DNA of 44,148 nucleotides from Chthoniobacteraceae bacterium. Its GTDB lineage: Bacteria; Verrucomicrobiota; Verrucomicrobiia; Chthoniobacterales; Chthoniobacteraceae. Below the pieces are notes generated by a model, which saw nothing but the letters and a program-made list of their open reading frames with translations, was not told the DNA's origin and made no database searches. Of the stretch, positions 1-44,148 are shown one piece after another (the stretch's first letter is position 1; every line of letters starts with the position of its first letter). A program made the translations under genes and the position numbers. The DNA lies in the NCBI GenBank assembly GCA_947448395.1, contig CANFNA010000007.1:1-44148 (forward strand). Reading direction: 5' to 3'.

Positions 1-1492
1 GATGCACCCCGAAGGGCCTGCTCTGACGAATGGTGAGGTTCTTTATGGTAACACGGCGGACGTTCTGGAGCAGGATGACGCCGTGCGTGCCGAAGGCGGG
101 ATTGGCCTTCGAAGATAGGCCGAGGGTATTTCCGTTGTTGGCGACGGCGTTCGCCAGAGTCGTCCAGATCCCGCCTTCGATGGCGATGTCGGTGTCAAGC
201 GGCTGATCGGCCGGCACGGGCTTGGTGTTCAGTGTGACGACATGTTCGTTGCGCACCATGCAGGTGTTGCTTCCGGGTTTGAGGCGGATCTCGGCGGTCG
301 GGTCGGCGCTGAGTTTCTGGCCGGACTTCAAGACCAGCGGGCCGTCGATGTAGTAGGGCTGTGCGCTTGCGGGGATGTGCAGCGTGCCTTGGGCGTCGAG
401 CGAGGCCTGCATGGCCTGCGTCCAGACTTCGCCCGTCACCTCGCGTGTCTCGGCCTTGCCGGAAGCGTCCGGCCATTTCTCGGTCCACGACTCCTTACGG
501 ACGAGCGGCTGGAAGTCCGAAAGCTTCTTGGCTGCGAGCACTGGTGACTTGCCCGTCGGCTCGAGATAGCCGAGCGATACGAAGAAGGCGTCCAGTTCGC
601 GGATCGTTCGGTGGAAGCATCGGTTGGCTTCCTCGCGCGGCTCGCCTTGACCGCGGCCTGGATTGAAGAATCCGTGCGGCTGGCCTTCGTAGGCCTTGAG
701 CTCACAGCGATTGCCTGCGGCTTTCATGGCTTGGGCGAAGAGCTCCACCGTGGGGAATGGCACCGCCTCGTCTTTCGTTCCGTGGAAGAGGATGCTTGGA
801 GGCAAACCAGCGCGGATGAAATGATAGGGGGAGATCTCTCGTGGCCGGCCTTCGGTGCGAGCGCTGAGATTGGCGAGGCTTGCTTCTGAAAGCAACCCAG
901 GGTGGCCTTCCGCCGGCGATAGCAATACGGCGGGGTTAAACAACGCGAGGGCGTTGGGCATCGAGCTGGTTTCGGGATGCGCTCCCTCCTCGAAGCCTGG
1001 TACCAGCGCTACCGCCGCGGCGAGGTGTCCGCCGGCAGATTCGCCTCCGGCGACGATTCGGTTGGGGTCGATACCCAAGCGCGCAGCATTGGCGCGAGCC
1101 CAGCGTATCGCCGCCTTCGCATCGCGCAGGCAGTCCTGGGGGCTGATTCCATGGCGGCTCAGCACCCGGTAATCGCAGGGGATGGCGACCATGCCTCGCT
1201 GGGCTAGGTAGAGCGACTGTGGGAGCAGTTGTCCCGGAGTCCCGCCTTTCCAGCCACCACCGAAGAAGAACAGTACCGCCGGCCGACGATCCGATGCCTG
1301 ATGGTGCGGCGGGGTGAAGACGTAGGCGTTGAGCTTGATGCCATTCACCTCGCGATAGACCTCCACGCTCGCCCCCAGCATTTCGGGAGGATATTTCCAG
1401 CTCACCGGCGGTTCGGGAAGACCTTCGGCCGCCTGGAGCGAGACCAGGGGCGCCAGCAGCAGGGCGAAGAGGAGGGTGAGGAGGTGATGCAT
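1..1492 (-). CDS. Secreted alpha/beta hydrolase (esterase/lipase, BD-FAE/acetylxylan-esterase-like) fused to a right-handed beta-helix (GH28/polygalacturonase-like) domain; 3' end truncated by window edge
   Basis: Manual minus-strand translation from ATG at 1492 with no stop to the window edge: MHHLLTLLFALLLAPLVSLQAAEG (signal peptide) ... RRPAVLFFFGGGWKGG ... DCLRDAKAAIRWARANAARLGIDPNRIVAGGESAGGHLA ... ILFHGTKDEAVPF ... GQPHGFF (nucleophile GESAG, Asp, His); then TAEIRLKPGSNTCMVRNEH ... IAIEGGIWTTLANAVANNGNTLGLS ... NVRRVTIKNLTIRQSRPFGVH, typical of beta-helix polygalacturonase-like repeats. Not in the supplied ORF track. Confidence 0.85.
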   Translation of the reverse strand, partial: MHHLLTLLFALLLAPLVSLQAAEGLPEPPVSWKYPPEMLGASVEVYREVNGIKLNAYVFTPPHHQASDRRPAVLFFFGGGWKGGTPGQLLPQSLYLAQRGMVAIPCDYRVLSRHGISPQDCLRDAKAAIRWARANAARLGIDPNRIVAGGESAGGHLAAAVALVPGFEEGAHPETSSMPNALALFNPAVLLSPAEGHPGLLSEASLANLSARTEGRPREISPYHFIRAGLPPSILFHGTKDEAVPFPTVELFAQAMKAAGNRCELKAYEGQPHGFFNPGRGQGEPREEANRCFHRTIRELDAFFVSLGYLEPTGKSPVLAAKKLSDFQPLVRKESWTEKWPDASGKAETREVTGEVWTQAMQASLDAQGTLHIPASAQPYYIDGPLVLKSGQKLSADPTAEIRLKPGSNTCMVRNEHVVTLNTKPVPADQPLDTDIAIEGGIWTTLANAVANNGNTLGLSSKANPAFGTHGVILLQNVRRVTIKNLTIRQSRPFGVH

Positions 1493-1507
1493 CGTCTGAC
1501 GGTTATT

Positions 1508-1550
1508 GGTAAGCATTGGCTTTTTGCCCCGCTTCCGCAACTCGCGCGCG
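1508..1550 (-). repeat. Dispersed intergenic repeat, copy A
   Basis: GGTAAGCATTGGCTTTTTGCCCCGCTTCCGCAACTCGCGCGCG; matches copies C, D and E. Confidence 0.65.
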
Positions 1551-1778
1551 CTGTCAGCACCGGTTCTCACTCCGCCGGGATGCCAGGCGTGTCGCCGGGG
1601 GAAATTCAGATGAACAGGCCCCACTTGTCCGCGTGTTGGTAGGTGGCGGGAACGATGAGCTGAAACTCCTCCGTGGCGATGTCCAGCGCCTCGGGGTACA
1701 GGAGGGGAGAGTGACTAGAGTGTTTTCACAAACACCCTCCTTCACTCCTTGATTTGTTAATCGCTCTCACTGGGCTGC

Positions 1779-1813
1779 GGGTAGCATTTTGTATTTCCCA
1801 TCGCTACGGGCGG
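1779..1813 (-). repeat. Dispersed intergenic repeat, degenerate copy F
   Basis: GGGTAGCATTTTGTATTTCCCATCGCTACGGGCGG; closest to copy B. Confidence 0.4.
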
Positions 1814-1981
1814 AGGATGTGGGGATGTATTGTGTTGTCGTTAAGGACAGGGCGGGTGGGACGTATACCAGCCAGCGGGCTTAGGTGGAGTTGCTTGCTC
1901 CTGCGTGATCATGGGAGTTGGCTCGGCCTGATCACTCAGGGGGTGAATTCTCGTCGTGGGAGACGCTTCTCTAGGCAGTTG

Positions 1982-4900
1982 CTATTTTCCGAGGTCGAAA
2001 AGGTATTTGAAAAGATCCAGTTCCTCGGCCTCGCTGAGGGGCGACATCAGGCCCTCAGGCATCAGAGTTCCAGCATCTGTACGCGTGGCGATTTTGCTTT
2101 TGAGAATGGGTGCGGTGGGATTCCCGGACAGGTCCTTTAAAGTCAGAGTTTCAGCGGTTTCAGACGCCTTATAACCCTGCTGGATCGAACCTTCTTTTGT
2201 CGTGATTTGGGTGAGCATATAGCCTTCCTTCACCTGCCGCTTTGGCCAAAGCACGGACTCCACAATCATCTCCGGTGTCATGGCGCGTCCAATTGCGCTG
2301 AGATCTGGACCTAGAATGCCGCCTTCACTGCCGACTTTATGGCAGGCCGTACACGTGGATTGAGCGGCTTTGAATACCTTCTCGCCTTGAGCGGCATTGC
2401 CATTGGCCTGCGAGCGAGCAACCCACCGACTGACCAGCGATTCGCTGTACTGTGAATCTATCGCTTTAATGCCTGCCGCCGTGACCAACGAAGAACGCAG
2501 TGCAGGTTCATCATATCCACTTTGTGATAGCCACTGTAGTGAAAGCTTTGCTGACTCTGCCTGTAATCCCCCATTTTGAATGGCTTTCGCGAGCAAGGCA
2601 GAACCACTTTTTTGGGCGAGCAGAGGAGTGAGTAGTTCTGAAACTGCCTTGGTTGAAGACACCGTTCCAAGCAGCTTCGCACAACGCTCGGCAACGGCAT
2701 GGGTATCGAGTGGAGTGGCTGCTGAAAGGGCTCCCATCCGGAGAGTTGGATCGGGTGAATCCGAGAGGCGCAGAATTTCCTCCAAAGCGTCTTTTCCTCT
2801 GACTTTAGCGAGTGCTTTTAACGCTGCGCCGCGTTCCGCTGACGAGGCATTTGAATTCGCTAAAATTGAGGAAAGATTCTTTGCTGCTTCTGGCTTTTCA
2901 GATCCGACAGACGCAACAATCTGGCATCCCGCAATTCGTATTCCGGAGTGTACGCTCAGCAGCATCTCGAGTGTGACGTCGGAATAGCCTACTCCATTGG
3001 CTTTTCTGGCTGCATCTCGGATGGCATTGAGCACAGGTTGGGCGGTTTGTGCTTTCGCCAGCGCGTACGAGGCATCGCTAGGACCTCCTTCGTCGACGAT
3101 TGCCTTCAGCAGGAGGTCGCGATCGGAATCATTCAGTTTTCGGGAGTCGATCAAGTTACGAATCGTTGGGAAGAGACTGCTATCGGGGAGCGTGGTGAGC
3201 ACACGAACCAGTGCGTTGGTGCGACCTTCAAAATCGAGGCTCCCGGTTGCCAGTGCTGGTTTCCAAAATGGGGAAAGAGCGTGTATGCATTGCGTGAGGG
3301 CATGAGAGATGGCGGCGTCGGAGGATTGCTCCAGCGAGAGGGACGCTATTTTGAGAGCCTCGTTTGCGAGCGCTTCGGGCATCCATGCACAAGCGACAAT
3401 GGCCTCTAGTCGGACTCGTGGATGTTGGTCCGCCATGGCTTTTTTCAGAAGGGTTAAAGGGCTTTCTAATTTGTGGGCCCATATTCCAACGAGATGGGTT
3501 CCCCAGGCACGCTCGCGAAAATCCTCTGACGCCATTAGGCGCGCAACGATTTCAGGTGAGATCGCTTCATGGGCGGCAAACACGCCGCTCAGTTCGTAGA
3601 GGAACCGTGTGTTTAGGACGTTTTCGGGGATTTGCAGCGCGGCATTTGCAGCTGCAAGCACAAGCGTCGAATCCATTCGGTAAAGGGCAAACTTGGCAGC
3701 ATCGCGTTCCCAGCGTTCCGTAGCGCGGAGGCGCGAAACCAGTTCTTCAGGGCTTTTCTTAGCGAAATTTGGCTTCTGAACAAGGGGGCGTCCTTTCGCG
3801 GTGACGCGCCAAATGCGGCCGTGAGAGCGGTCTCGGCGTGGGTCGCGATAGCTTGCTTGGTAGTGGCCGATCACGGGATTCAACCAGTCACACACATAGA
3901 GTGCTCCATCTGGGCCGACACGCGTTTCAACGGGACGAAACTCGTTGCCGCCCGAGAGTAGGTCGCCCAGATCTTCGCTCACGAAGGTGGATTCAGAGTC
4001 CCGCAGGCGATAGAGCTGAATCTGGCTGGTGTAGTAGGTGCTCTTTAGAAGGACGCCCCGGAGGTCTTCTGGAAGATGACTGCTCTCTAGAATTTCGGGT
4101 TCCATGCTTTTGCCGCGTGAGGCGGCGATTCCCGTTGGGAGCAGTTGCGGATGGAGGGTGGGGATGAGCGCGGGAGTACTGTGCCAGATTTTTGTGTCTG
4201 CGCCGCTTCCGTGGAACATCTGGCCGAAGTTATCCCAAGCGGTGCCCCAGCAATTGAGGCCTGCGCCGCTTTCATTCAGGAAAGAATCAAGGCGGCAAGT
4301 GCGTGGGTTGTAGCGCCAGAGGCCGCTCCGATTGAGCTCTGAAAGACCGTGAGGCGTTTCCACATAAGACCAAATATGGTAGCCTTGAGAAAACCAGAGG
4401 CACCCATCCGGTCCCCATCGCAGCGAGTTGGCGTCTTGATGCGTGTCGCCTGTTCCAAACCCGCTGAGAATCACTTCGCGCCCATCCGCCTTGTCACGGC
4501 CAGCGAGGTCTGTGAGATGAACGAGTTGGGTGCTTTCACAGACATAGAGGCCACCCCCTACCGATTTCGGAGCAAACTCGAAGCCCATCGGCATGGTGAG
4601 GTTTTCCGCGAAGCGCCATGATTTGTCGGCGCGTCCATCGCCGTCGGTATCTTCAAGAACGAGGATGTAGTCATTGCCGTGTTCGCCGGGTTGCAGCTGT
4701 GGATATGCGGGAGTGCAGGCGACCCAGAGTCGACCGCGCTCGTCCCAACGGATCTGAATGGGACGAACCACTCCCAACTTTTCATCCGCGAACAAGTTGA
4801 CTTCGAACCCATCTCGGATTTTGAAGTTGCCGAGTTGTTCTTCCGGCGACGGGGCGGGAGGGTCAGCGCGATTGAGTTGAGGCTGCAAAGGTGCGGGTGC

Positions 4901-23338: not shown

Positions 23339-23388
23339 TGGTAGCATTTGGTTTTCGCTCCATTCCTACGGCTCGCGCGCGGGCGGGG
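23339..23388 (-). repeat. Dispersed intergenic repeat, copy B
   Basis: TGGTAGCATTTGGTTTTCGCTCCATTCCTACGGCTCGCGCGCGGGCGGGG, between convergent genes. Confidence 0.55.
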
Positions 23389-36405: not shown

Positions 36406-36465
36406 TTTTTTCTTTTCGCCCCGTCTCCTCATCTCGCGCGCGGTATCAGCGCGGGGCGCGCTAAA
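36406..36465 (-). repeat. Dispersed intergenic repeat, copy C
   Basis: TTTTTTCTTTTCGCCCCGTCTCCTCATCTCGCGCGCGGTATCAGCGCGGGGCGCGCTAAA (approximate bounds); last 24 bp match copy E at 23/24. Confidence 0.8.
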
Positions 36466-36533
36466 AATGAGGCGTTGGTTCCCGCCGATACGGTTTTCTT
36501 CGATAACCCAGAGCGCATCCGCACCTCATCCGC

Positions 36534-38504
36534 CTACCACGTGTCTGTGCGGAACGGAGATGCAGGCAGTCCGGCGCCGTTGAAAAGATTGCATCCCTCG
36601 GGGTTCTCGGCCCACGCATAGCGGACTGCGGCCGGCTTAAGAACCTGCGGACTGCTGACGACGACGGAATCGCCTTCGATCCGCGCATTTGCCCAGACGA
36701 ACTTTCGATCCTCTCCCGCGATTGCGAAGCGGCGGAGCTCCCCGCCTTTCGCCTGCAATCCGCCAGCATGGCTGAAGGCGAGGCGCACCTCCGAACCGGC
36801 GACCTTCATCTCAAGGTAGCGCGGCCCACTGGATTCAACGGCCTGACCATACGTCTTCTGCAAGGCTACGAGCGCGAGACGGCGGCCGACATCCTGCTTA
36901 TTCTCGGGGTGAATCGTGTACCGACTCCCAAGCTCTATACCGACCGCGATCCCCACATGGGGCACCTCATCGGCAACACGCACCTGGGCCTCGCGCAGAT
37001 AGGGCCAGCTATCACGCGGCCGATCAGCCTCTTCGTAGGGAAGTCCATTATTCACCAGTTGCTGCAGGACGAATGGAAAATCGCCCTGGCCCCACTGTGC
37101 CCGCCAATCCTGAATCATGGCCGTGAGCAACTTGCGGTACTCGGCATGGCGGGGCGCATTGCTCTCGCCTTGATACCAGATCACGCCTCGCAATCCATAG
37201 GGCACAAGTGGAGCGATCATCCCGGTGTAAAGCGAGGCCGGCACAGTCCGCATCGCCATCCGACTTGGTTTAGGACGCGCTGCCAAGGCTTCTGGGGTCA
37301 GCGGAGCGAAAGCACTCTCCTGTCGCAAAAGCCATTCGTCGCCCACCTTGCCGACATCCTCCACAGGCAACCCGAGCTGATGCCCGGAAACCCAAGGGCC
37401 GGCCTTCTCCGTCGCCGAGACAATGCGCACCGCAATGACGTTACGGCCCGCCTTCACGAGCCTTCCCGGCACCTGATACCGCCGCTGCTGCGTATAGAAT
37501 TCGGGCGGCAGATCAGCGGCGTGGCCGATTTCCTCACCATTCCAATAAGTCGTATCATACTGCTCCGAGATCCAGACTAGACTCAGCCCGAATGGCTTGC
37601 CAGCGGCCGCTTCGGGCAGTTCGACCTCCTTGCGGATCCAAAACACGCCGCCGGATTTGAAGCCTTGTTGTCCCCATTGAGCAGGGAGGCGGACCTTCTT
37701 CCAATCCGTGGTATCAGCAGAAAAGTCCGCCCAGCCTTTGACGGATTCCGCGATGGCCGGCGGCCGCACGGCGTGCTTCTCCTCCCAAGCCGCGCGGGCG
37801 GCCGGAAAGAGTCGAACCATTTCCGGTTGGGCTATCATCTCGGCGATTTCGGCATCCGACCTATCCGCAACGGCGGGAATGCCGTGAAGCACCTCGAGCC
37901 GCGTCCACGCCTCAATCGGCGTACCGCCGACGGAAGAATGAATCAGGCCCACCGGGACTCTCAGCTCCTCCTGCAACTTCCTGCCGAAATAATAGGCGGC
38001 GGCGGAAAACGGCCGAATGCTCTTCGGGGCACAGAGCGACCACTCCCCTTTGACATCCGCCACCGGCTTCAGCGCAGGATTGGCTGCCACCGTAAAAAGG
38101 CGGATCAACGGGTGATCCGCTGCGGCCACCTCCCTTTCGGCATCGGCACTTTCGCCCACCGACATTCCCATGTTGGACTGACCTGAGCATAACCAAACCT
38201 CGCCGACAAGGACGTCGTGGAAGGACAGTGGGCCGACTTTTAATGTGCTCGGCTCCGCACGCTCCGGCATGGCATCGATCATCACTTTCCATCGTCCCTC
38301 GGCGTCGGCCGTCGTGGACTTCACCTGCCCTGCAAATTCCACGGTGACGCTCTCTCCGACATCGGCCTGTCCCCAGACCGGTATGGCTTGATTGCGCTGC
38401 AGGACCATGTGGTTGGAAAAAACAGCCGGCAGTCTCGGCTCGGCCAAAGCGAGAGAACTAAAGGCGAGCGAACCGAACAAGATTGAGGATAAATTGCGGA
38501 GCAT
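36534..38504 (-). CDS. Sialate O-acetylesterase (SGNH/SASA family)
   Basis: 656 aa; LPAVFSNHMVLQRNQAIPVWGQADVGESVTVEFAGQ; VWLCSGQSNMGMSVGES; LRGVIWYQGESNA; signal peptide. Confidence 0.93.
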   Translation of the reverse strand: MLRNLSSILFGSLAFSSLALAEPRLPAVFSNHMVLQRNQAIPVWGQADVGESVTVEFAGQVKSTTADAEGRWKVMIDAMPERAEPSTLKVGPLSFHDVLVGEVWLCSGQSNMGMSVGESADAEREVAAADHPLIRLFTVAANPALKPVADVKGEWSLCAPKSIRPFSAAAYYFGRKLQEELRVPVGLIHSSVGGTPIEAWTRLEVLHGIPAVADRSDAEIAEMIAQPEMVRLFPAARAAWEEKHAVRPPAIAESVKGWADFSADTTDWKKVRLPAQWGQQGFKSGGVFWIRKEVELPEAAAGKPFGLSLVWISEQYDTTYWNGEEIGHAADLPPEFYTQQRRYQVPGRLVKAGRNVIAVRIVSATEKAGPWVSGHQLGLPVEDVGKVGDEWLLRQESAFAPLTPEALAARPKPSRMAMRTVPASLYTGMIAPLVPYGLRGVIWYQGESNAPRHAEYRKLLTAMIQDWRAQWGQGDFPFVLQQLVNNGLPYEEADRPRDSWPYLREAQVRVADEVPHVGIAVGIELGSRYTIHPENKQDVGRRLALVALQKTYGQAVESSGPRYLEMKVAGSEVRLAFSHAGGLQAKGGELRRFAIAGEDRKFVWANARIEGDSVVVSSPQVLKPAAVRYAWAENPEGCNLFNGAGLPASPFRTDTW

Positions 38505-38597
38505 CTGAATGGGAATGAGCTAGTTTAAGAGAGAAAGAGTATCGATACCATGAGGGTTTCGGTTTGCGTGAGGGCCCGCAACGATTGAACGCGTAGT

Positions 38598-38665
38598 GAT
38601 AAGAAAATGCTTTTGCCCCGTTTCCGTAGTTCGCGTGCGGGGTGTCGTCCTGGGGCGCGCTAAAG
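38598..38665 (-). repeat. Dispersed intergenic repeat, copy D
   Basis: GATAAGAAAATGCTTTTGCCCCGTTTCCGTAGTTCGCGTGCGG...GGGGCGCGCTAAAG. Confidence 0.8.
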
Positions 38666-38917
38666 TTTGCCCGCCGTTTTGCAGACCGCTCCGTGACCAA
38701 CCCGCAGATCGTTTTTTTCGGAATCACTGGAGGACTTATTTCCTGTCCCGCCGCTTTAACGGTTTCGGGCAATAATGGTGCACCGTGCGCCGTATCTGTC
38801 CGGCGTTCACCTTTTCATTCTGGCCGCCGCCATGGCCTGGCACGGCTGGCAGAACCTCCACCGGCATTAGTTTCCCCATTCCTCGCAGGAAAAGCGGCAT
38901 TTCCCCCGAGAACCTCG

Positions 38918-39688
38918 CTACTCGAGGGGCGCAAACTGCACGTCATCAAACCACGTTTGCATGACCCCCGCGTTGCTCCGTCCACCGGCAAGCCCAATGC
39001 TAGTCTTGGGCACATCGCCACAGAGGGTTGTGTACGTCAGCGCCTTTTGGCCGTCCACGAAGCCGGTCATTTCCTTGCCTCGGAGCTCAATGACGAGTTC
39101 GTGCCAAACGTCCGGCGCAATTTCGCGTTTCTCGGTCTTCGCGATGAAGAATTTCCGGTTCCAATCTCCCTTTTCCTTCATGGCTGTGGCCTCGGGGGAG
39201 TCCTTGGGATGCAGTACATCATTTTCCGCAGCGGCCACCGAATCGGTATGGATGCGGAACACCGCGATATGGAAGTTGCGTTCCACAATCGGATTGTTAC
39301 CGCGAATGGTGAATTGGCCCATGCCGTCCTTCGGGAGTTTGATGCGGCAACTCAGGCGAATATTCGAACCGGAGGCGAGGTGGGTGATGCCTGCCGGATG
39401 CTTCTCCTCGGGGAAATTCTGACAAAGGAGCGCGCCATCGACGATTTGCCACCAATCGGGGCGCACCTTTGCGCCAGAGACGTTCGTGCCGAGGGGGTGT
39501 TTGGCATCAATCCCCGAGGCAAGAAATCCGTAGGGCGTCCAAGCTTTCTGGAATGCTTCCAGATCTGAAAAATCCTCTCGCCACGCAGCCTGAGCCGCCG
39601 TGCCAGAGCTCGCCGGAGCCTGGGCGTGCAGGTGCTGGCAGGGGATCAAGGCAAGGGCAAGCAGAGCGAGTCTGACGGGGTTTTTCAT
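38918..39688 (-). CDS. DUF1080/LamG-like (ConA-fold) secreted protein
   Basis: Met at 39688 gives signal peptide MKNPVRLALLALALIPCQHLHAQ; DFSDLEAFQKAWTPYG...DWWQIVDGALLCQNFPEEKHPAGI...VDGQKALTYTT...KTSIGLAGG. The track ORF extension to 39781 runs through an intergenic repeat. Confidence 0.78.
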   Translation of the reverse strand: MKNPVRLALLALALIPCQHLHAQAPASSGTAAQAAWREDFSDLEAFQKAWTPYGFLASGIDAKHPLGTNVSGAKVRPDWWQIVDGALLCQNFPEEKHPAGITHLASGSNIRLSCRIKLPKDGMGQFTIRGNNPIVERNFHIAVFRIHTDSVAAAENDVLHPKDSPEATAMKEKGDWNRKFFIAKTEKREIAPDVWHELVIELRGKEMTGFVDGQKALTYTTLCGDVPKTSIGLAGGRSNAGVMQTWFDDVQFAPLE

Positions 39689-39710
39689 GGAGGGTTGAAA
39701 TGCGAAAAAA

Positions 39711-39816
39711 TGATAAGCAAATGCCTTTAGCTTTTCGTCCGCTTTTCGAAGTTCGCGCGCAAGGTAGCAAGTCGCGCGCAAGGTAGCAAGGTATCGGCGC
39801 GGGGCGCGCTAAAGGC
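39711..39816 (-). repeat. Dispersed intergenic repeat, copy E, with perfect 9-bp terminal inverted repeats
   Basis: GCCTTTAGC (39723-39731) ... GCTAAAGGC (39808-39816); internal GTTCGCGCGC and GGTATCGGCGCGGGGCGCGCTAAA (39790-39813). Confidence 0.85.
39753..39790. repeat. Perfect 19-bp tandem duplication inside repeat copy E
   Basis: TCGCGCGCAAGGTAGCAAG at 39753-39771 and 39772-39790. Confidence 0.95.
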
Positions 39817-40063
39817 AGCAAGAGGGCGGCCACGAGGGGTAGGCGTGCGGGGTGCAACAAGCGGACTTACGCGTTTGTCCAGATGCTATGAAGTCAAAAC
39901 AACGGATTTACACGGTGCCTCACAAAACCCCCATGGCTAACGTTTTATCGAGAAGCATTGCGAACTCCTTCTTCAATTAGGCAGTTCATAAACATACTCG
40001 TTTTCCAAAGCGCCTCCTAAGTCCGCCTGACCCGCCGGATAATGCTTAGGTCGCTTCCGTCCC

Positions 40064-41353
40064 ATGAAACCATCCTCACTCTCGCGCCGTCATTTTTTAC
40101 GGAGCACCGCGGGCTCCCTCATCGCATTGCCCTTTCTTCCCTCTTTGGGCTTCCGCGCTTTCGCGCAGGAAAAGTCGACCACGCCTCCAAAACGAATGGT
40201 CTTTCTAGGATTCGGCTATGGCGTCACGAATGAGACGTGGTTTCCGGACCTCACACAAACCGGATCTGCTTACACCCTTCCTTTGGGGCTAGCCCCGCTG
40301 GAACGCCACCAGAAAGACTTCACAGTCGTCCAAGGGTGCACGAACAAATTCGCTAACGAGGCGCATTGGGGCAGCACATTCTGGCTCACCGGCGCCAACC
40401 GTTACGCGGAGCCGGGCCAGAGTTTTCACAATTCCATTTCTGCGGATCAGGTAGCCGCAGGCCTTCTCGGGAACGATACACGCTATGCCTCCATTCAACT
40501 CAACACCCCGGACGTCCAAAATTCCGGTCACGGACCGGGGCTCTCGCTGGCCTGGGATCAACGAGGCAAACCCGTCGCTGGTCTTGATAATCCTGTAGTC
40601 GCCTATCACCGGCTGTTCTCCGACGACACGCTCCCCCTTGAACAACGGCAGGCCGCCCTCAAGCAAAAACGCAGCGTACTCGATACCGTCCTCGAGGACG
40701 CCCGACGCGTCCAACGGGGACTGAGCAGGTCCGATACTGACAAATTGGACGAATATTTCCAAAGCATCCGCGACATCGAAACACGTCTAGGCAAAGACGA
40801 GCAATGGTTGACGGTTCCGAAAGCAAAAGCGCCGATGCCAGAGCCCAAACCAGGACTCGCAGGCCGTGAGGAAATTAAAGTGATGTACGACCTGATCGTG
40901 GCCGCACTTCAAACCGATGCCACGCGAGTAATCACATACCGCCAGCCCGTTCAGACCCTTCTGGCAAGCCTCGGGTCCAAAGTCGCGTCCCACGACATGA
41001 GTCACTACACACCCGGGGAGCGAACAGAGGCTTCGCAAAAACGGGACGCCGCCCAGAGCGAACTGTTGGCCGGACTTTTCGATAAACTCAAAGCGGTTAA
41101 GGAAGCAGATGGATCTTCTTTATTTGACCACAGCTGCATTGCCTACGGCAGCAACATTCGCTCAATCCATTATCTGGACAACTGCCCAACTGTCCTTGCC
41201 GGCGGGGCCGCGAGCCTCAAGCTCGGCCAACACATCGTCCTGCCCAAAAACACGCCCCTCGCCAATGTCTGGCTGACGTTACTACGCGGCATCGGAGTGC
41301 CGGCAGAACGCCACGGAGACAGCACCGGAGTAGCGAAGGAACTACTGGCCTAA
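40064..41353 (+). CDS. DUF1552 family protein (strong Tat signal), copy 3
   Basis: 429 aa; MKPSSLSRRHFLRSTAGSLIALPFLPSLGFRAFA; DQVAAGLLGNDTRYASIQL; LDTVLEDARRVQRGLSRSDTDKLDEYFQSIRDIETRL. Confidence 0.93.
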   Translation: MKPSSLSRRHFLRSTAGSLIALPFLPSLGFRAFAQEKSTTPPKRMVFLGFGYGVTNETWFPDLTQTGSAYTLPLGLAPLERHQKDFTVVQGCTNKFANEAHWGSTFWLTGANRYAEPGQSFHNSISADQVAAGLLGNDTRYASIQLNTPDVQNSGHGPGLSLAWDQRGKPVAGLDNPVVAYHRLFSDDTLPLEQRQAALKQKRSVLDTVLEDARRVQRGLSRSDTDKLDEYFQSIRDIETRLGKDEQWLTVPKAKAPMPEPKPGLAGREEIKVMYDLIVAALQTDATRVITYRQPVQTLLASLGSKVASHDMSHYTPGERTEASQKRDAAQSELLAGLFDKLKAVKEADGSSLFDHSCIAYGSNIRSIHYLDNCPTVLAGGAASLKLGQHIVLPKNTPLANVWLTLLRGIGVPAERHGDSTGVAKELLA

Positions 41354-41380
41354 GACCTCCACTCCCGATCCACCCAGACG

Positions 41381-43966
41381 ATGAAACGCGCTTCTTGGTT
41401 TGCGGCCTCTTTGCTGGCCGCCACACCGGCCTTTCCTGCGAATGAAGCAGTCGTTCCAGAAAAACACCGTCAGTTCTTCGAGAGCTACTGCACCGAGTGT
41501 CACAATGCCGATAAACAAAAAGGAAAACTGCGCCTCGACAACGTTTCGCTAAAGCTCGACTCCGTCGAAAGTGCCGAGCGTTGGCAGAAAATTCTAAACC
41601 AGATCAATTCCGGAGAAATGCCTCCGGATGACTCCAAACAACCAGAAAAAGGAGCGAAAACCGAATTCCTCGACTCCGTTGCCAACACCCTCGTGGTCGC
41701 CCGGAAAACACTCAGCGATCAACACGGCAACATTACGATGCGCCGCCTGAACCAGCGGGAATACAGAAACACAATTCGCGAACTACTGGGCGTCGAAATC
41801 GATGTTCATGATCTGCCAAAGGACGGCGGATCCGGAGCCTTCGACACGGTGGGGGCCGCGCTGTTTATGTCATCCGATCAGTTCGAACAATACCTGGCAC
41901 TGGGCCGCCGAGCGGTCGATGACAGCTTTGCTCGCGCACTCGGGGGGGCAGCCCAACCAAAGGAATCCCCACCCAGAACGATCACAGAGCGCCGCGAGGT
42001 CGAGTTACACGCCAACGCAAAGGTTGGTGGCACCTACAACGGCTATTACAAAGGTGGGTACAGTGTTGCAAAAGCCTACCTCGACAGCGACCGGAGCAAG
42101 CCGCCCAGCGCTTTTGGCAAAGGCATCGCCGATGAGGTAGAAGCAAAGTTCCGGGTAAGAGTCTTCGACGAACACGGGCCGTCCTTTGAGCGCTATTTAA
42201 ACGATCCTCTCACGCAGAAAGGTGCGTACCTCACCATTTTCAACGTCAACACCGAGGAAGCAATCACGCTACCTCCTGATCAACCTTCGGGCTGGCTCAA
42301 AACAAAACATGTAGTCGAAAACGTCGAGCCTGGCAGATACAAACTGCGCTTCCGAATCGGTGCTGTGAAAGGCACTCCGGAAGAGAGGCATTTTGTCGCC
42401 CTCGGAAGCCGGTCCCCTGGAACAGAGGATTTCAGCTTGATGCACACCTTTCAGATCAGCGGAACAATCGAAGAACCGCAGATCATCGAAGTCCCAGTAA
42501 ACATCACCGGGAACGGCCCGCGCACTTTTGTGGTCCGCGAAAAACGCGATGTGAAGCTCGACCAAGAAATCTACACCGCTGCGCGTAAGGCCACTGGTGT
42601 CGGCCCTGAGCCTGCGCTCTGGATTGATTGGGTGGAATGGGAGGGGCCACTCGCGGAGCCCAACCCTCCGGCGATTGCCGAGTTGTTCGCGGCGCAGAAT
42701 CCGGAAACGCCAGAGAATCAGACCGCGCGAGCCATACTCGAGCGCTTCGCCGTTCGCGCCTTCCGTGATCTCAAGCCGGAACCCGCATACATGGACCGGC
42801 TGATTGAGTTGTTTCAGGTCCAGCGCAAAACTGGAAACTCGTTTCGTGATGCGCTGAAAGAGCCCCTGAGCGTTGTCCTCGCCTCTCCCGGATTTTTGTA
42901 TCTTGCCGAACCGAGTTCGGGCCCAACCCGTCGCCGCCTCACACAACGCGAATTCGCAAGCCGTCTCGCGTATTTCATCTGGAGCGCTCCACCGGATGCG
43001 GAGTTACTGGCCCTCAGCCGAAAGGGAGACCTGGCTAAACCCGAGATCCTCTCGAAACAACTCGACCGGCTGATAGAAGACCCGCGGAGCTCGGCTTTTG
43101 TGAACGCCTTTGTTCACCAGTGGCTCGGTCTGGACCGTCTCGACTTCTTCCAGTTTGATACGAAAGTACACCGCGCTTTTGACGAGGGCACCAAAGCTGC
43201 CGCTCGGACGGAGGTATACGAGACTTTTGCGTCTCTTTTGCAGAACCACAAAAGCCTGAAACACCTGCTCAAGTCCGACTTTGTGGTCATCAACGGACTG
43301 CTGGCGAATTATTATGGCATCCCAGATGTCAGCGGGGACGCCTTCAGGCCTGTAAAATTAGCTCCGGACTCCCCTCGTGGCGGGCTCCTCGGAATGGCCG
43401 CGATCCAAGCGATGGGCAGCAACGGCAAGGAATCCAGCCCAGTCGAACGGGGAGCGTGGGTCCTTCGGAAACTCCTGCACGAGCCCCCGCCTCCTGCTCC
43501 GCCGAATGTGCCGCAACTTTCGCGCCTCGAGGGAAAACTCCTCACCACGCGTGAGCGCCTGACGGCGCATCAGGAACAGCCACAGTGCGCCTCTTGTCAC
43601 CGCAAAATTGACCCCATCGGTTTCGGTTTGGAAAATTTCGACGCCGTCGGCAAGTGGCGGACAGAAGACGGATACGAAAAGAAGGGCGTGGGAAATAAAA
43701 AGTGGCCCATCGAACCCGCGGGTGCGTTTCACAACGGGCCTGCCTTTAAGGATTACTTCGAACTGCGGGATTTGATCGCTGCGAAACCGGAGCGGATCGC
43801 AAGAGGGCTCACCGAGGCGCTGATCGAGTTTGGATTGGGACGCCCCTTTGGGTTCTCCGACGAAGACCTCGCTGTTCGGATTTTGGAACAATCCCAGAAG
43901 CAAGATTTCGACGTCAGAACCTTCCTTCACGCCTTGGTAGAAAGCCCCGATTTCCAGATGAAATAA
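41381..43966 (+). CDS. PSCyt1 - DUF1587/DUF1592/DUF1588/DUF1585 cytochrome protein, copy 3
   Basis: 861 aa; FFESYCTECHNADKQKGKLRLDNVSL; MRRLNQREYRNTIRELLGV; LAYFIWSAPPDAELLALS; CASCHRKIDPIGFGLENFDAVGKW. Confidence 0.94.
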   Translation: MKRASWFAASLLAATPAFPANEAVVPEKHRQFFESYCTECHNADKQKGKLRLDNVSLKLDSVESAERWQKILNQINSGEMPPDDSKQPEKGAKTEFLDSVANTLVVARKTLSDQHGNITMRRLNQREYRNTIRELLGVEIDVHDLPKDGGSGAFDTVGAALFMSSDQFEQYLALGRRAVDDSFARALGGAAQPKESPPRTITERREVELHANAKVGGTYNGYYKGGYSVAKAYLDSDRSKPPSAFGKGIADEVEAKFRVRVFDEHGPSFERYLNDPLTQKGAYLTIFNVNTEEAITLPPDQPSGWLKTKHVVENVEPGRYKLRFRIGAVKGTPEERHFVALGSRSPGTEDFSLMHTFQISGTIEEPQIIEVPVNITGNGPRTFVVREKRDVKLDQEIYTAARKATGVGPEPALWIDWVEWEGPLAEPNPPAIAELFAAQNPETPENQTARAILERFAVRAFRDLKPEPAYMDRLIELFQVQRKTGNSFRDALKEPLSVVLASPGFLYLAEPSSGPTRRRLTQREFASRLAYFIWSAPPDAELLALSRKGDLAKPEILSKQLDRLIEDPRSSAFVNAFVHQWLGLDRLDFFQFDTKVHRAFDEGTKAAARTEVYETFASLLQNHKSLKHLLKSDFVVINGLLANYYGIPDVSGDAFRPVKLAPDSPRGGLLGMAAIQAMGSNGKESSPVERGAWVLRKLLHEPPPPAPPNVPQLSRLEGKLLTTRERLTAHQEQPQCASCHRKIDPIGFGLENFDAVGKWRTEDGYEKKGVGNKKWPIEPAGAFHNGPAFKDYFELRDLIAAKPERIARGLTEALIEFGLGRPFGFSDEDLAVRILEQSQKQDFDVRTFLHALVESPDFQMK

Positions 43967-43971
43967 CCCCG

Positions 43972-44148
43972 ATGCACAAAACAACGCCACTCCTTCTCAC
44001 GCTTACCCTGCTCACGACAAGTGTAATGGCGCAAAGCGCGGCCAAAGGAACTGTTCTTGTGAAAGCTGATTTCAGCAACGATGTCGTCGATAAAGCGATG
44101 TTTGGAATCTCTTCCTGGAACATCCCGGAGACGTGGGAACTCAGGGAC
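43972..44148 (+). CDS. 5' end of a secreted protein, truncated at window edge
   Basis: Open frame from ATG 43972, five bases after the preceding stop: MHKTTPLLLTLTLLTTSVMAQSAAKGTVLVKADFSNDVVDKAMFGISSWNIPETWELRD; clear signal peptide. Not in the supplied ORF track. Confidence 0.7.
   Translation, partial: MHKTTPLLLTLTLLTTSVMAQSAAKGTVLVKADFSNDVVDKAMFGISSWNIPETWELRD

Follow-up and report, generated by a model that had tools for sequence, protein, structure and literature searches.

Rolling-circle transposons of the IS91 type are thought to mobilise neighbouring genes, resistance genes (ISCR) among them, and they insert beside a tetranucleotide target of the GAAC/CAAG type with no target duplication. 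A hairpin immediately before the cleavage site is expected for HUH origins and for the 3' ends of Helitrons. Elements of the IS91 family require an origin at their right end (PMC3189936, PMC6218425). In the IS801 derivatives of Pseudomonas syringae this right end is essential, right-end fragments are mobile without a transposase gene and adjacent upstream gene fragments are picked up; the fragments measure 229, 360 and 679 nt, have their left ends at target-like tetranucleotides and occur in few copies (PMC3189936). Natural IS801 fragments were ascribed mostly to reorganisation by Bardaji et al. 2011 (PMC3189936). A single-ended mobilisation model has been put forward for ISCR1, where oriIS lies downstream of the transposase gene and has variable DNA beside it (PMC6218425). 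Helitrons follow a rolling-circle HUH logic, with a short hairpin before the terminus, captured gene fragments and many non-autonomous copies (PMC4778049), and REP sequences are small dispersed intergenic hairpin repeats tied to an HUH enzyme, the RAYT (PMC6006769).

We analysed a window of 44,148 nt, the whole of contig C7 from a 3.18-Mb MAG (G000, completeness 82%) of a Chthoniobacteraceae bacterium, in which dispersed intergenic repeats had been noticed. Sequence comparison indicates that these repeats are very probably the solo right termini (presumed oriIS) of a rolling-circle transposon that belongs to the IS91 family and resides in freshwater Chthoniobacteraceae-like Verrucomicrobiota. 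Their closest precedent would be the one-ended transposition of IS801, with which they share right-end pieces that move without a transposase gene and the uptake of adjacent upstream gene fragments; they differ from it in their length of 60-71 nt, a single fixed left end, tens of copies per genome and another phylum. The features of ISCR1 listed above recur here too, whereas sharp-ended solo oriIS families are not described in PMC6218425 and oriIS promoters are demonstrated there, not here. The likeness to Helitrons likewise extends to each of the traits named, but CTRR ends and RepHel are absent here, where the enzyme is of the Y2_Tnp/Zn_Tnp_IS91 type and the terminal sequence is another. REP-like in appearance, the repeats go with an IS91-type and not a Y1 enzyme, and we saw neither a GTAG foot nor inverted REPIN pairs (PMC6006769). 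None of the IS91-type literature cases compared offers many clean, recent origin-end copies in natural genomes.

Results

Copies were found with an iterated profile and counted genome-wide at E<=1e-3. Read on the minus strand of the window, the unit is 71 nt long, TTTAGCGCGCCCCGCGACGATACC-(GC-rich)-GGAAACGGGGCnAAAAGCnnTTTCTTATCAnT, or in full, 5' to 3', TTTAGCGCGCCCCGCGACGATACCGCGCGCGCGAGCTGCGGAAACGGGGCnAAAAGCnATTTCTTATCAnT. It starts at TTTAGC, runs through a GC-rich imperfect palindrome and a short hairpin, and ends in YTTATCAnT. The relevant features of the window are:

1507..1553, minus strand: copy A, model positions 23-69, right two thirds only (E 4e-9), 15 nt from the esterase start (1492, minus strand)
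1772..1995, minus strand: 224-bp segment, 88% identical to C23:3303-3525 (L016) of the same genome, holding the former copy F
23343..23381, minus strand: copy B, model positions 26-64, a weak, degenerate remnant (E 5e-4)
36408..36465, minus strand: copy C, model positions 1-60, solo, left end intact, right end replaced (E 5e-13)
38597..38664, minus strand: copy D, model positions 1-69, solo, full-length (E 2e-15), between the DUF1080-like and sialate O-acetylesterase genes
39711..39813, minus strand: copy E, full-length (E 2e-10), sitting about 13 codons into a 3-keto-disaccharide hydrolase (DUF1080) gene, which it breaks
39816..44148, no strand: block left of E with a DUF1552 gene and the next genes, common to G004, G009, G006 and G005

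The repeat family described in the first-pass annotation is real as far as A, C, D and E are concerned, which are significant and all on the minus strand, but B is weak and F is no copy. B fell below threshold with a second profile, and the gene downstream of it is on the plus strand and ends towards it. F (1779-1813), formerly listed as a weaker copy, has no profile match and is a gene-end remnant within the duplicated 224-bp segment. This segment is present twice in the genome and consists of a DUF7133 gene tail and the 3' end of a PATR/Ig gene; its C23 occurrence lies directly right of an element copy. The match between C and E reported by the annotation was reproduced, with 23/24 positions (96%) over GGTATCrGCGCGGGGCGCGCTAAA; E (39711-39813) additionally carries a 19-nt tandem duplication, TCGCGCGCAAGGTAGCAAG x2, within the GC-rich palindrome. 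The positions given for A, C, D and E relative to minus-strand start codons were also correct, the distances being 15, 176, 93 and 23 nt. The genome-wide profile search that had been suggested revealed further copies outside the window, 22 in the whole genome, a number far above what chance would give. The unit is present in 11 of the 12 genomes of the genus, this one included, the other 11 holding 41, 54, 28, 27, 11, 55, 10, 1, 17, 5 and 0 copies; at the family level a few genomes have 1 to 6.

On contig C5 of the same genome the unit forms the 3' end of a transposase locus. The 445-aa transposase (G000:C5:44274-45608) matches PF04986 Y2_Tnp (1e-26) and PF14319 Zn_Tnp_IS91 (4e-18), both above the Pfam cut-offs, a pair of domains that characterises the IS91 family. 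As also expected for that family, the origin end lies 3' of the transposase gene and the left end is different: the IS begins with CCGACTCTTCTCGCCG..., unrelated to the right end TTTAGC...TTATCAnT, and has no terminal inverted repeats. Homology of the IS among G000, G006, G002, G001 and G004 stops just beyond the right end of the unit, and the right flank of the copies displays an nT(t) preference alone. The transposase had no match at E<=1e-10 in G003 and G004, which hold many copies each, perhaps because these MAGs are incomplete. Searching with the transposase led to relatives that are lake MAGs titled Chthoniobacteraceae and other Verrucomicrobiota; some of the titles, 'Akkermansia muciniphila' for one, seem to have been assigned wrongly by an automatic procedure.

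The boundaries of the unit were examined on the 109 copies whose left end is intact. Twenty of them are preceded by a conserved IS tail ending in AAAAGCAATTCTCCC, in which most of the positions -15 to -2 carry 1.0-1.6 bits. The remaining 89 are solo copies, whose left flank is random (0-0.11 bits per position over 25 nt) up to the first base of TTTAGC, where information rises to 0.96-1.89 bits per position for the element's first 12 nt. On the right, information ends after TATCAnT(t). The random left flanks, the sharp TTTAGC and the stop at TATCAnT(t) indicate a unit with two sharp boundaries. Solo copies are identical to the end of a resident IS in at least two genomes. In G000, two copies on C5 (45837 and 46635) lie 798 nt apart and are identical over 70 nt with unrelated flanks, the first being the IS end; in G006 the copy on C97 is identical to two copies on C163 and to the one on C172, solo and IS-linked copies being represented. 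TTTAGC and TATCAnT, the two termini, do not form inverted repeats and the flanks have no consistent duplication, so that the unit is not a MITE in the strict sense.

Three further right ends, 60-70 nt long, follow this IS tail as well; their middles differ, but they share the edges TTwA... and AAGN...TTCYTATC. Since one IS tail is joined to several ends of shared architecture, the end module appears to be part of the IS and not a chance target. The type-2 right end, TTAACGCTCCCGCGTCCAGGCTGAAGAAATCGTGCCGGGGGGCAAAAAGCAAATGCCTATCC (62 nt), found behind this tail, is present in 43 copies in G002 (at least 18 of them identical), 41 in G005, 29 in G009 and 18 in G001; none was found in G000. It also forms head-to-tail tandem pairs 64 nt apart (examples of the type are L043:32-88, L048:92-146 and the left flank of L069). 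These identical and tandem copies indicate that the modules multiplied recently.

In the 15-nt stretch whose last base is the first T of TATCA, the stem averaged 3.26 pairs compared to 2.54 in shuffled sequences, a value reached in 0/500 shuffles, a count that is not a probability because the sequences are related. Folding of the whole module, as DNA or RNA, was not better than in shuffles (z -0.25 as DNA), and RNAalifold returned only 5 pairs. No Rfam family matched in the window.

In an empty-site search, the flanks of 26 copies were joined without the element and compared with 16-18 genomes. No contiguous empty site was recovered (0/26), with no match across a junction and no clean 71-nt empty site. 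One flank was matched in relatives for 14 of the 26 copies, within about 30 nt of the junction for 12 and within 8 nt for 10. The block left of E is 95.8% identical to G004:C8, and synteny ends 3 nt from the TTTAGC of copy E. The DUF1080 gene broken by E is intact in three relatives (G004, G002 and G005); in the window about 35 nt of it are left before the copy, a different DUF1080-like gene lies beyond, and the missing half was not found in G000, which is 82% complete. The second copy on G000:C5 has the first half of a PSCyt1/PSD3 gene on one side and the opening part of an oxidoreductase gene on the other, and in G009 a gene fragment with its element adjoins DNA that has a 99% identical counterpart in G002, in which the IS tail runs on instead. 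Copies thus sit at junctions that read as chimeric and mark cut-and-rejoined genes. These cases would fit carriage of left-side DNA by copying past the stop, and recombination between copies would look alike.

Toxin-antitoxin modules are frequent at the right edge of copies. HigBA-like, UPF0175/VapC-like and nucleotidyltransferase-type modules were seen there (L217:799-1617, L227:15259-16050 and L043/L051/L054), and in relatives they turn up again, sharply bounded and with different neighbours. The right-flank blocks had been considered as a second transposon, a candidate that was rejected, as they are toxin-antitoxin modules with varied neighbours. The esterase gene (window 1-1492) has orthologues in six relatives with other upstream DNA and no element. 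The upstream neighbour differs in each of them (L267-L271, L277), and homology sets in close to the start codon. These genomes have had their gene order reshuffled one gene at a time, whether the element is present or not.

Discussion

A shared regulatory role had been proposed for the repeats, either as a regulon site or as a promoter-supplying repeat driving the downstream carbohydrate and cytochrome genes. Four window copies do lie 15-176 nt upstream of co-directional genes, and several copies in relatives stand 9-60 nt before the starts of secreted-protein genes. The oriIS regions of ISCR1 carry outward promoters (PMC6218425), which leaves room for a side effect of this kind on single genes here. 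Among 127 non-redundant copies the 3' neighbour gene was however co-directional in 67 cases and opposed in 44. Within 300 bp the counts were 54 and 39 (p=0.15), and within 60 bp they were 23 and 18. The 5' neighbour read in the same direction in the larger share of cases (71:42, with a nominal p of about 0.008), and only nine classified copies lay inside a called gene. Promoter-like matches in the region occurred in the number expected by chance, the sole match found not overlapping an element; orthologous genes in relatives do without the element; and the 3' neighbours in the window's own genome are mixed by Pfam (PSCyt/PSD, C11 peptidase, GT17, PATR/Ig, S1 ribosomal protein, esterase and small unknowns). 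From this family-wide lack of gene orientation and the mixed neighbours, the arrangement of the four window copies is best read as a local coincidence, and a regulatory element is unlikely. The fixed orientation upstream of genes described in the first-pass annotation therefore holds for these four copies but not for the family, and the pattern that it named as speaking against its own reading, copies scattered without orientation or gene-class bias, is largely what we observed for orientation relative to genes. Its notion of a 'promoter-supplying MITE' survives in part: the repeat is mobile and non-autonomous, with a parent that can be named (the right end of an IS91-family element), but the promoter and regulatory part is unsupported. 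Such repeats upstream of genes are easily misread as regulons.

The excess of solo over IS-linked copies (89:20) would also be expected if the 71-mer were an independent repeat beside which the IS91-type transposon merely inserts by target preference. Each genuine IS tail found, however, leads into one of four end types of shared architecture, an IS91-family origin is needed at exactly this end (PMC3189936, PMC6218425), and the mobility of the repeat itself would be left without an enzyme. Because all genuine IS tails carry an end module, a target of this kind is improbable, if slightly less so than a regulatory element. Two further systems resemble the repeats in layout and are both very improbable. 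Copies that share an orientation and have single genes or toxin-antitoxin modules between them recall the attC sites of an integron gene-cassette array (CALIN), and one genus genome, G004, has an IntI gene, but the R''/R' core pair RYYYAAC...GTTRRRY occurs in 0/109 copies, genes are truncated at elements, and IntI is above cut-off in none of the other 11 genus genomes, including G002 and G006 with their 54-55 copies. The IntI matches of G004 are at contig ends (C3:3-824, C8:3-467), and decayed pieces are present in G001 and G005. In size, hairpin and dispersed intergenic location the units look like REP sequences moved by RAYT, a Y1 HUH transposase (PMC6006769); yet Y1_Tnp is absent from G000, G004, G008, G009 and G010, which carry 22, 27, 1, 17 and 5 copies, no palindromic REPIN pairs were seen, and the transposase to which copies are joined is of the IS91 type.

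We therefore return to the right terminus of an IS91-family transposon. The HUH transposase would nick beside TTATCA, and the strand would then be copied leftwards. A stop at TTTAGC would yield the mini-unit, while copying past TTTAGC into flanking DNA would carry gene fragments along, and recombination between copies may add further rearrangements. The right end is intact and the left end fixed at TTTAGC in the 89 solo copies; with the high copy number, this fixed left end appears to go beyond plain one-ended transposition. On sequence grounds, the unit seems to work like an IS91 one-ended product without being classed as a plain member of that group. A broader reading is put forward only tentatively, as a possibility somewhat less favoured than its opposite: 60-71-nt IS91-type origin modules of at least 4 sequence types might multiply as complete mini-elements, drag along gene fragments and toxin-antitoxin modules and create many accessory-genome junctions in lake Verrucomicrobiota, a bacterial counterpart of Helitron-like shuffling. 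With its tens of copies in each genome, its identical copies, of which one type has 18 or more, and an enzyme paired with its end, the genus makes the minimum mobile origin, the copying stop and the capture of gene fragments testable.

Neighbouring copies within a contig share their orientation in 56 cases and are opposed in 9 (66 contigs). Where third-position GC skew exceeds 0.1, the unit is on the C-rich strand in 25/31 contigs (p=0.0009), the skew and strand-bias tests being exploratory, with several thresholds tried. Co-orientation within contigs is real and tracks the skew strand of the contig, not start codons. Strand-biased insertion during replication is known for other HUH elements (PMC6006769). 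Co-orientation would fit such a bias and might arise because insertions at the replication fork enter a single strand. In the window contig, the minus strand holds most genes and all copies. The G002 contig C124 (L051) spans the left end of the window and the left end of G000:C23; as it bridges both contigs, C23 is probably the continuation of C7. On the C23 side of this bridge lie two further element copies, with the reading direction unchanged.
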